Assembly: GCA_035570235.1 (NCBI GenBank)
Contig: DATMML010000071.1
Span: 1-38,714, forward strand
Origin: Vicinamibacteria bacterium
GTDB lineage: Bacteria > Acidobacteriota > Vicinamibacteria > Fen-336
Direction of reading: 5' to 3'
DNA length: 38,714 nt
The notes under the pieces are model-generated. The model was not told the DNA's origin and ran no database searches. It was given only the letters and a program-made list of their open reading frames with translations. Positions 7,126 through 19,175 of this stretch are shown one piece after another. Both the position numbers and the translations under genes were made by a program. Within the stretch, counting starts at the first letter, position 1. Every line of letters begins with the position of its first letter.

Positions 7126-7154
7126 TTGACGAGGGGTCCGGCCTCCCCTATACT
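7126..7154 (+). promoter_or_regulatory. Sigma70-type promoter of the thrC leader
   Basis: TTGACG (7126-7131) and TATACT (7149-7154) are separated by exactly 17 bases, five of six matches to consensus in each box. The predicted transcription start falls at about 7160-7162, where an ATG sits at 7162. The surrounding bases are AT-rich on the upstream side, as expected for a promoter in a GC-rich genome. Confidence 0.75.
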
Positions 7155-7161
7155 CTCGTCC

Positions 7162-7275
7162 ATGAAACGGGCGTCCCTTCTCGCGGCGGTCCGGGTGAGA
7201 GGGCAGCGTCCGTCCGTGGGCCCCATGGCGATGCGCATTATCGTCCGCCGGGGCCCCGCGCGCCCGCTCGGCTAG
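7162..7275 (+). CDS. Candidate thrC leader peptide, 37 aa, probably leaderless
   Basis: This short frame starts at ATG 7162, about seven bases after the -10 box, so the transcript would carry almost no untranslated leader. It ends at TAG 7273-7275, 26 bases before an intrinsic terminator hairpin that precedes thrC. The peptide begins MKRASLLAAV and contains M-A-M-R-I-I-V-R-R at residues 22-30, with ATT ATC GTC as consecutive codons (7237-7245). There are no Thr codons. An Ile-Ile-Val run before alternative hairpins suggests sensing of charged isoleucyl- or valyl-tRNA, which makes sense because threonine is the precursor of isoleucine. The role is inferred from layout; no homologue is known to me. 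Confidence 0.5.
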   Translation: MKRASLLAAVRVRGQRPSVGPMAMRIIVRRGPARPLG

Positions 7276-7330
7276 CAAGCCAGCGCGTCGCGCGCAAAAT
7301 GGCCCTCGGCGAAATCGCCGAGGGCTTTTT
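7218..7330 (+). terminator. Intrinsic terminator acting as candidate attenuator of thrC
   Basis: The terminator is GCCCTCGGCG (7302-7311) pairing with CGCCGAGGGC (7316-7325), a perfect 10-bp stem around AAAT, followed by TTTTTCGTTTT. Competing pairs are visible. GGGCCCC (7218-7224) can pair with GGGGCCC (7250-7256) around the Ile-Ile-Val codons. CGCCGGGG (7246-7253) can pair with CCTCGGCG (7304-7311), eight pairs with one G-U, which would disrupt the terminator. The thrC ribosome site follows the U tract at once, so readthrough is needed for thrC expression from this promoter. Confidence 0.7.
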
Positions 7331-7348
7331 CGTTTTGGGGAGGCCGAC

Positions 7349-8593
7349 ATGGGTTGGGTGACTGGCTTGAAGTGCAAGGAGTGCGGGAAGGAACGGGGGA
7401 TCGAACCCGTGGCGGCCTGCGACGCCTGCTGGGGAGCCCTGGAGCCGGTCTACGACCTGGAGCGGGCCCGGGCCACGTTCACCAAGGAGGCGATCGCGGA
7501 CCGCCCGCGCGACCTCTGGCGCTACCGCGAGCTGCTGCCCCTGGAGGCGGAAGGGACCGTGGGCTGGGGGACGGGGTTCACCCCCCTCCTGCGCGTCCCG
7601 CGCCTGGGCGAGCGGCTTGGCATCGCCGATCTCTGGGTCAAGTACGACGCGGCCTGTCATCCCACCCTCTCCTTCAAGGACCGGCTGGTGGCGGTGGCGC
7701 TAAGCAAGGCCAAGGAGTTCGGGATGGACACCGTGGGCTGCGCCTCCACCGGCAACCTGGCCAACGCGGTGGCGGCGGGGGCGGCCCGGGCCGGCCTGCG
7801 CGCGGTCGTGCTCGTTCCGGAGGACCTGGAGGCGACCAAGCTCCGGGGGACGGCCGTGTACCGCGCGACGCTCGTGGGCGTGCGCGGCAACTACGACCGC
7901 GTGAACCGGCTCTGTGCGGAGATCGTGGACCGGCACGGCTGGGGGATCGTCAACGTCAACCTGCGCGCCTACTACGGCGAGGGCTCCAAGACGGTTGGCT
8001 TTGAAGTCGCGGAGCAGAGGGGCTGGACCCTGCCCGGCCACGTGGTCGCGCCCATGGCCGGGGGCAGCCTGCTCACCAAGATGGAGCGGGCCTTCCGCCA
8101 GCTCGTGGAGCTGGGGCTGGTTGACGACGAACCCTTCGTACTTCACGGGGCCCAGGCCGCGGGCTGCAATCCAATCGCGGGGGCCTGGAAGGCGGGGCTC
8201 GCCACGCCACGGCCGGTGAAGCCGGCCACCATCGTGCGCAGCCTGGCCATCGGCGATCCCGCGGACGGCGCGTCCGCCCTGGCTGCGATCCGGCGCACAG
8301 GGGGGCGGGCCGAGGATCCCACCGACCCCGAGGTGATCCAGGGCATGCAACTCCTGGCGGAGACGGAGGGCCTCTTCGCGGAGACGGCGGGGGGGACGGT
8401 GGTGGCCGCCGCCCGCCGGCTCGCGGAGGGCGGGGCCTTTGCGGACGGCCGGCCAGTGGTGCTCCTTATCACGGGCCACGGCCTCAAGACCGCGGAGGCC
8501 CTGGGCGGGCCTGCCCCCTTCGATACCGTCATTGACGGGCGGCTCTCGGAGTTCGAGGCGTTCTGGAGCGCCCGGGAGGGGGCGGTGGCCTGA
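7349..8593 (+). CDS. thrC: Threonine synthase
   Basis: A cytoplasmic PLP enzyme that converts O-phosphohomoserine to threonine, the last step of threonine synthesis. The 414-aa length suits the family. An N-terminal zinc-ribbon-like part (Cys 9, 12, 24 and 27) is followed by the fold-type II PLP domain. HPTLSFKDR holds the Schiff-base lysine (about Lys110), CASTGNLANAVAA is the substrate loop, and PMAGGSLLTKM and a late LLITGHGLKT are the phosphate-binding and C-terminal landmarks. ATG 7349 is preceded by GGGGAGG at 7337-7343, an excellent ribosome site. No hom or thrB gene is adjacent. Expression is probably controlled by the leader and terminator directly upstream. Confidence 0.95.
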   Translation: MGWVTGLKCKECGKERGIEPVAACDACWGALEPVYDLERARATFTKEAIADRPRDLWRYRELLPLEAEGTVGWGTGFTPLLRVPRLGERLGIADLWVKYDAACHPTLSFKDRLVAVALSKAKEFGMDTVGCASTGNLANAVAAGAARAGLRAVVLVPEDLEATKLRGTAVYRATLVGVRGNYDRVNRLCAEIVDRHGWGIVNVNLRAYYGEGSKTVGFEVAEQRGWTLPGHVVAPMAGGSLLTKMERAFRQLVELGLVDDEPFVLHGAQAAGCNPIAGAWKAGLATPRPVKPATIVRSLAIGDPADGASALAAIRRTGGRAEDPTDPEVIQGMQLLAETEGLFAETAGGTVVAAARRLAEGGAFADGRPVVLLITGHGLKTAEALGGPAPFDTVIDGRLSEFEAFWSAREGAVA

Positions 8594-18781: not shown

Positions 18782-18815
18782 CGCTTGGCCTCCCCGGCTC
18801 CCAAAAAAGAACCCC

Positions 18816-18967
18816 AAAAAGCAAAACCCCCGAGGTTTGCTGCCTCGGGGGTTCTGATCGATCTCGACTTGGCTCTTGGCCTAGATCACCGAACCCCCGT
18901 GCGGTCTAATGGAAATCAGTACCAGCAGTCGCAGGGACAGTCGTACCGCGACCAAGGTGGGTTCGGC
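18816..18967 (-). promoter_or_regulatory. ilv operon transcription attenuator (leader RNA with alternative hairpins)
   Basis: Read on the minus strand. Segment 1 is GCCGAACCC (18967-18959), segment 2 CGGGGGTTC (18899-18891), segment 3 GAACCCCCGAGG (18854-18843) and segment 4 CCTCGGGGGTT (18835-18825). Segments 3 and 4 form a perfect 11-bp terminator stem with a seven-base loop and then TTTTGCTTTTT. Segment 2 pairs perfectly over 9 bp with the first part of segment 3, which would prevent the terminator. Segment 1 can pair with the segment 2 region (18896-18888) over nine pairs, one of them G-U. The control codons lie between segments 1 and 2. A ribosome at the leader stop would cover segment 2 and allow termination; a ribosome stalled on Leu/Val/Ile codons would leave it free. 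This matches the classical ribosome-mediated attenuation design. Confidence 0.88.
18825..18853 (-). terminator. Intrinsic terminator within the ilv attenuator
   Basis: Perfect 11-bp stem AACCCCCGAGG/CCTCGGGGGTT with loop CAGCAAA, followed on the minus strand by TTTTGCTTTTT. It lies between the leader peptide stop (18881) and the ilvB start (18781), so it would cut the operon transcript short unless the antiterminator forms. Confidence 0.9.
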
Positions 18968-18985
18968 GAGGCCGAATTGAGTCAT
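18881..18985 (-). CDS. ilvL: ilv operon leader peptide, 34 aa
   Basis: A short frame on the same strand as ilvB, from ATG 18985 to TAG 18881; an in-frame ATG at 18994 would add three residues. Residues 11-26 read L-V-A-V-R-L-S-L-R-L-L-V-L-I-S-I, so 11 of 16 are Leu (6), Val (3) or Ile (2), the products of the operon. Codons include GTA twice and ATT twice, which are rare in a genome this GC-rich and would increase sensitivity to tRNA charging. The last codons (CAC GGG GGT TCG) contain antiterminator segment 2. The start lies only about 13 to 22 bases after the -10 box, and no ribosome site is visible, so initiation may be leaderless or nearly so. The symbol follows usage for such leaders. Confidence 0.85.
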   Translation of the reverse strand: MTQFGLAEPTLVAVRLSLRLLVLISIRPHGGSVI

Positions 18986-19007
18986 CGAGGGCATACGAAC
19001 GGTCGGT

Positions 19008-19036
19008 AGCGTACGCGGGATCTCGGGGGCTGTCAA
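19008..19036 (-). promoter_or_regulatory. Promoter of the ilv-leu operon leader
   Basis: On the minus strand a perfect -35 TTGACA (19036-19031) is followed after 17 bases by TACGCT (19013-19008) as -10. The transcription start would fall near 19001, only about seven bases before ATG 18994. The exact -35 box and correct spacing make this the best candidate promoter of the whole operon. Confidence 0.7.
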
Positions 19037-19175
19037 GGCCCTGTACTCGTCCCCATGATTTAGTGACACCCGGGCAGGTTTTTGTGGCCGGACCGGGCGG
19101 CCAGGGCCCTGGCCGGTCTGGAGGCGGTCGTCCGGCGGCCTTGCACGACCGGACCTAGAACGTCTGAATCGCAGC
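19037..19175. other. Intergenic stretch with a 16-bp perfect palindrome
   Basis: Between the hydrolase stop and the ilv promoter lies GGCCAGGGCCCTGGCC (19099-19114), a perfect palindrome. GACC (19091-19094) and GGTC (19115-19118) extend it after an asymmetric bulge. A T run precedes it on the plus strand, and it reads as an A run after it on the minus strand, so it does not have intrinsic terminator form in either direction. It could slow polymerase, bind a dimeric protein, or be chance in GC-rich DNA. Confidence 0.4.

Follow-up and report, generated by a model that had tools for sequence, protein, structure and literature searches.

A candidate methionine-responsive leader-peptide attenuator upstream of a MetM-like gene in a Vicinamibacteria family

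Organization of the locus

The window analyzed in this study, 38,714 nt in length, corresponds to one entire contig of a 5.7-Mb, 138-contig genome (completeness rating, 99.6%), and the DNA around the leader has a G+C content of 70%. All conclusions on the leader and the gene behind it are computational. Every element listed in the first-pass annotation was present on direct reading of the sequence, and the features are arranged as follows.

7126-7154, plus strand: sigma-70-type promoter TTGACG-N17-TATACT (-35 box TTGACG at 7126-7131, 17-base spacer, -10 box TATACT at 7149-7154)
7162-7275, plus strand: leader ORF of 37 codons, MKRASLLAAVRVRGQRPSVGPMAMRIIVRRGPARPLG (ATG at 7162, stop codon TAG at 7273-7275)
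7218-7230, plus strand: segment 1 (GGGCCCC at about 7218-7224), predicted partner of segment 2 until segment 3 has been transcribed
7225-7227 and 7231-7233, plus strand: proposed control codons Met22 and Met24 (from conservation and stall positions)
7237-7245, plus strand: Ile-Ile-Val codons ATT ATC GTC, directly before segment 2 (run not conserved; a stall here would cover part or all of segment 2)
7246-7255, plus strand: segment 2, the 5' arm of the antiterminator, CGCCGGGGCC (predicted pairing with 7301-7311, 10 bp and one bulge, -22.5 kcal/mol)
7257-7294, plus strand: predicted inner part of the antiterminator, a hairpin that carries the stop codon (7273-7275) close to its tip
7301-7336, plus strand: intrinsic terminator (segment 3 at 7301-7311, loop, segment 4 at 7316-7326, then T tracts; -23.6 kcal/mol; conserved)
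7337-7343, plus strand: ribosome-binding site GGGGAGG (from sequence)
7349-8593, plus strand: gene for a probable MetM-like homocysteine synthase (similarity-based annotation, threonine synthase; ATG at 7349, 414 residues; assigned from tree and neighbourhood)

The promoter and 37-codon frame proposed in the first-pass annotation were both confirmed and have counterparts in four relatives (at the same position in the case of the promoter); translation also bore out the claim that the leader ORF contains no Thr codon. The perfect hairpin of the terminator, U tract, and ribosome-binding site described there were likewise read directly. Since the leader ATG is only 7 bases past the -10 box, the leader mRNA is probably leaderless, and the ORF is probably read from the extreme 5' end of the RNA. 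The pattern TTGAC-N15/18-TANNNT-N5/9-RTG was found 52 times in the 5.7-Mb genome, versus 3 times for a reversed control pattern, and leaderless translation is therefore plausible in this host. These matches mostly precede longer ORFs; among the places examined with this pattern, the window copy was the only one with a short ORF and a terminator behind it. TTGAC promoters with a start codon 5-9 bases past the -10 box stand ahead of many long ORFs genome-wide (e.g., L092 and L093), and leaderless translation therefore seems to be widespread in the organism.

Probable identity of the downstream gene

The product of 7349-8593 passed the broad TIGR00260 cut-off for threonine synthase, and the leader had initially been described as lying upstream of a threonine synthase gene. 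However, the tree and gene neighbourhood pointed to a MetM-like homocysteine synthase. In the tree, the window protein grouped with MetM-like, MoaD-linked orthologs (support 100/99), apart from the solved ThrC enzymes (33-37% identity), whereas a paralog from the same genome (C15) grouped with the solved threonine synthases (support 100/97). The active-site motif is NPTGSFKDRG in C15 and the solved ThrC enzymes, and HPTLSFKDRL in the window protein. MetM of Streptomyces albulus was represented in the tree by a syntenic Nonomuraea homolog; this protein is 48% identical to the window protein and belongs to the same clade, and its gene sits between a SAM-I riboswitch and a MoaD/ThiS-like carrier gene.

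A MoaD/ThiS-like sulfur carrier was encoded directly downstream of all six homologs from other phyla (about 50-52% identical), and a carrier was found downstream of 25 of the 26 phylum homologs read. The window gene has no adjacent MoaD-type carrier; contig C117 carries the nearest MoaD homolog. No strong match to MetX was found in the window genome, in spite of its 99.6% completeness rating. Because of the carrier neighbours, the clade in the tree, the separate canonical ThrC (C15), and the lack of a strong MetX match, 7349-8593 most likely encodes a MetM-like, O-phosphohomoserine-dependent homocysteine synthase; its homocysteine-forming activity is one that we infer from these comparisons. 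Canonical threonine synthase was dropped as the leading view on the basis of the tree and neighbourhood. In many class members, the gene comes after that for homoserine kinase, an arrangement compatible with both uses of O-phosphohomoserine; for a cyanobacterial relative, threonine synthase activity has been reported. The window genome also contains two more ThrC-like paralogs on long branches (C37:50638-51606 and C83:38466-39434).

Leaders in related genomes

Four genomes of the family contain orthologs of the gene with 75-82% identity, and one more genome has a homolog at 51%. A promoter, short ORF, and terminator were located ahead of the same gene in four of these five relatives, with the following leader peptides (start codon written as M).

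G010: MSLTMISRPEPSVRRMTISRRGWPAR
G003: MNAIMSRGGWPAR (13 codons)
G002: MTSAGTLMRAMSIRPLGVSPPPP
G012: MFKRYHRRMMGMCPGPRDPRAPMTG

The first-pass annotation had considered that relatives might keep the terminator but not the peptide; these four kept both. The automated leader scan recovered three of the four, because weak T tracts escape it, and G012 was missed. The comparison thus comprised five leaders (the window and four relatives), two of which share one genus. They vary greatly in length and sequence, yet the ORF and the Met codons persist, and their multiple alignments diverged too far to support covariance counts or a covariance model.

No leader was found ahead of the MetM-like gene of G008, the remaining one of the five relatives. 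In this genome, a cluster at L043:5084-10614 contains genes for a tetrapyrrole methyltransferase-like protein, sulfite/nitrite reductase, the MetM-like protein, rhodanese-MoeB, and MoaD. In another member of the family, G004, a leader with Thr-Arg-Arg-Thr-Thr and a terminator precedes an aspartokinase-homoserine dehydrogenase gene (L052:1259-1420); this putative attenuator shows what the threonine type looks like in the family. Except for this thrA leader, similar leaders were not found near the MetX, Cys_Met_Meta_PP, lysC, thrA, and MoaD loci of the order by the scan, which misses weak T tracts.

Proposed control codons in the leader peptide

The Met codons at 7225-7227 and 7231-7233 had been overlooked in the first-pass annotation, in which the leader was proposed to be tuned to isoleucine or valine through the ATT ATC GTC run. 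Internal Met was present in all five leaders (11 observed versus 2.07 expected; 5.3-fold, p = 8e-6), while the Ile-Ile-Val run occurred in the window leader alone. All 11 internal ATG triplets were in frame, with none in either of the remaining frames. In the whole-leader count, Met and Arg were the only amino acids still significant after correction for all 20. Near the point where a stalled ribosome starts to cover segment 2 (within three codons), Met accounted for 9 of 33 residues and Ile for 5 of 33 (p = 0.012, uncorrected), with no enrichment of Thr; the Met and Ile values are softer than the whole-leader count because this stretch was defined from our own folds.

Most Met codons are placed such that a ribosome stalled there would leave segment 2 uncovered. 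In the window, a stall at Met22 or Met24 kept 9-10 of the 10 segment-2 pairs over the ribosome edges tried, and stalls at Ile26, Ile27, and Val28 kept 0-7, 0-4, and 0, respectively. The single Met codon of G003 kept 3-5 pairs (4-6 for the neighbouring Ile codon), and one of the Met codons of G012 kept 0-1. By enrichment and position, Met would provide control codons for the end product ahead of segment 2, more weakly so in G003. The proposed tuning to Ile or Val was not supported: the run is conserved in no relative, and a stall at ATT (7237) or ATC (7240) would cost 3-10 of the 10 segment-2 pairs. Ile-Ile-Val was rejected as the set of control codons on both grounds.

Alternative RNA helices

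The window helices 1:2, 2:3, and 3:4 were predicted to be mutually exclusive, with about -20 to -24 kcal/mol each. The predicted antiterminator is a long hairpin, in which segment 2:segment 3 forms the outer part and the inner hairpin encloses the stop codon. Since the DNA has a G+C content of 70%, single helices are less special, and the duplex between the ORF and terminator arm gave p values of 0.03-0.15 per leader against shuffles. When six leaders were combined, 2:3 pairing gave a p value of 0.002, and the inner hairpin enclosing the stop codon, predicted in six of six, gave 0.0001; both values assume independent leaders, an assumption that holds only in part. The protector helix 1:2 was predicted in the window, G010, G002, and G004, was weak in G012, and was missing in G003. 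An antiterminator excluding the terminator was predicted in the window and mostly also in the relatives.

Segment 2, 20-27 bases before the stop codon, had been regarded as a poorer fit for masking by a terminating ribosome than in the ilv leader. This worry is largely answered by the folds: when a ribosome was placed at the stop codon, 1:2 was predicted to re-form in the RNA behind it, and the terminator in the RNA ahead. Since segment 2 would be re-paired with segment 1 behind this ribosome, segment 3 would be free for the terminator. The minimum-energy fold of the complete downstream RNA retained the terminator also when a ribosome was placed at Met24, and the switch must therefore act during transcription, as in classical attenuators. 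The exclusive helices and conserved layout agreed with the initially proposed attenuator with segments 1-4, and, by its structural features, the region looks like a ribosome-mediated leader-peptide attenuator.

Proposed mechanism and alternative explanations

We consider it probable, though well short of certain, that the leader is a classical ribosome-mediated attenuator with methionine as the main control amino acid, and that it controls the MetM-like homocysteine synthase gene. When methionyl-tRNA is short, the ribosome on the leaderless peptide would stall at Met22/Met24 (7225-7233) and cover segment 1, leaving segment 2 (7246-7255) free for segment 3 (7301-7311); this pairing would block the terminator, and the gene would be transcribed. 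When methionine is plentiful, the ribosome would proceed to the stop codon, which lies within the inner hairpin; segment 2 would re-pair with segment 1 and segment 3 with segment 4, and transcription would stop. The promoter, ORF, terminator, exclusive helices, in-frame Met codons, and kinship with MetM are supported by sequence and comparison, and from these we infer the transcription start, ribosome stalling, and response to methionine. Counted against the methionine attenuator are the number of leaders (five), the weak Met position in G003 and that of one Met codon in G012, the modest 2:3 pairing per leader, and the dependence of the switch on the order of events during transcription. Methionine is also an awkward control amino acid because initiation uses it as well, and a shortage would lower initiation too.

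An unlikely but serious competitor is a mixed aspartate-family attenuator, in which Met, Ile, and Thr codons jointly report all homoserine end products; it is suggested by the homoserine dehydrogenase carried on the transcript of some relatives. Ile occurs in four of the five leaders, in G010 Thr lies close to the control codons, thrA (aspartokinase fused to homoserine dehydrogenase) follows in G003 and G010 and hom in G002, and the leader before thrA in G004 is of the Thr type. The weak Met codon of G003, together with homoserine dehydrogenase downstream in G003, G010, and G002, keeps this mixed sensor as a candidate. However, after correction for 20 amino acids, only Met and Arg remain, the signal of Ile near the threshold codon is uncorrected and Thr has none; moreover, in the window, an Ile stall would leave segment 2 partly covered, and no homoserine gene lies downstream.

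The other explanations appear much less probable. An attenuator of threonine synthase tuned to Ile or Val, as first proposed, draws on the position of ATT ATC GTC immediately ahead of segment 2 and is very unlikely, because the run is in no relative, a stall there covers segment 2, and the gene is MetM-like. Orthologs elsewhere have SAM riboswitches at the same place, and this leader may in principle be an undescribed riboswitch (e.g., a new SAM aptamer) with an incidental ORF; we regard this as very unlikely, given that no Rfam SAM family matched and that the leaders diverge (13 codons in G003) while the ORF and Met codons persist. We give similarly little credence to an ordinary terminator with a chance ORF and no regulatory switch: pairing per leader is only modestly above shuffles in this G+C-rich DNA, but the order of parts is conserved, ATG triplets are in frame only, and the stop-codon hairpin is found in six of six leaders.

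SAM riboswitches and a proposed exchange of the sensor

Among the 26 phylum homologs read, a SAM-I core was found upstream in 13 and a SAM-II core in 6. Seven class members have SAM-I ahead of the gene or ahead of the pair that it forms with homoserine dehydrogenase. The SAM-II-like cores precede MetM-like genes in L193, L195, L199, L201, L204, and L205, from other Acidobacteriota-like families, and L199 and L201 have two such cores in tandem. No SAM-I riboswitch was found in any of 17 genomes of the window organism's order, and the window leader had no Rfam match to any SAM family, T-box, or other riboswitch, or to Thr_leader; a T-box or known riboswitch ahead of the 7349 gene was rejected accordingly. 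Since SAM-I was not found in these 17 genomes and a leader with conserved Met codons occupies the place of the riboswitch in relatives, the simplest account is that a methionine attenuator stands in for the SAM riboswitch ahead of the gene in the window family.

Comparison with known systems

In common with the enterobacterial thr operon leader thrL (Rfam Thr_leader) and the trp, his, leu, ilv, and phe leaders, the window has a short ORF that contains control codons, three alternative helices (1:2, 2:3, and 3:4), and a terminator before a biosynthetic gene. It differs from thrL, which has Thr/Ile codons, in its Met control codons, seemingly leaderless ORF, MetM-like gene, and lack of an Rfam match. 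The ilv leader mentioned in the first-pass annotation also lies in the window (18815-19040, minus strand), with a TTGACA promoter, the ORF MPSMTQFGLAEPTLVAVRLSLRLLVLISIRPHGGSVI, and a terminator with the arm GAACCCCCGAGG; its duplex between ORF and terminator arm was strong against shuffles (p = 0.001).

SAM-I (RF00162) and SAM-II (RF00521) resemble the window leader in position, gene, and response to methionine supply, the last being proposed for the leader. They bind SAM directly, whereas the window leader, in which no SAM aptamer was detected, would sense charged tRNA-Met via translation. In S. albulus, metO reportedly adjoins metM, and the window gene shares a clade with the Nonomuraea gene of metM-metO layout. 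The S. albulus locus differs in its SAM riboswitch and adjacent metO, in place of which the window has a leader peptide and its nearest MoaD homolog on C117. A SAM riboswitch is reported upstream of S. albulus metM (PMC12172450, citing Hasebe et al. 2024).

The candidate attenuator would work in the manner of known ones, with methionine as its proposed control amino acid. Attenuation by leader peptides is an established mechanism for several amino acids, while methionine genes are noted for their riboswitches, T-boxes, and repressors. In a survey from 2005, methionine is assigned to riboswitches, and attenuators are given for His, Thr, and Phe (PMC1262725). The literature open to search, mostly without subscription papers, yielded no methionine attenuator of the leader-peptide kind. 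On balance, we lean slightly toward the fuller proposal that this is the first leader-peptide attenuator sensing methionine, in which the charging of elongator tRNA-Met would be read by a leaderless Met-codon ORF that has replaced a SAM riboswitch before metM in one bacterial family.

The "threonine synthase" annotations of the gene's clade are flagged as probable homocysteine synthases. If it works, a methionine attenuator would be mechanistically informative, given the role of methionine in initiation, and, if the proposal is true, it would represent a clean case of one gene switching its sensor type across a phylum.
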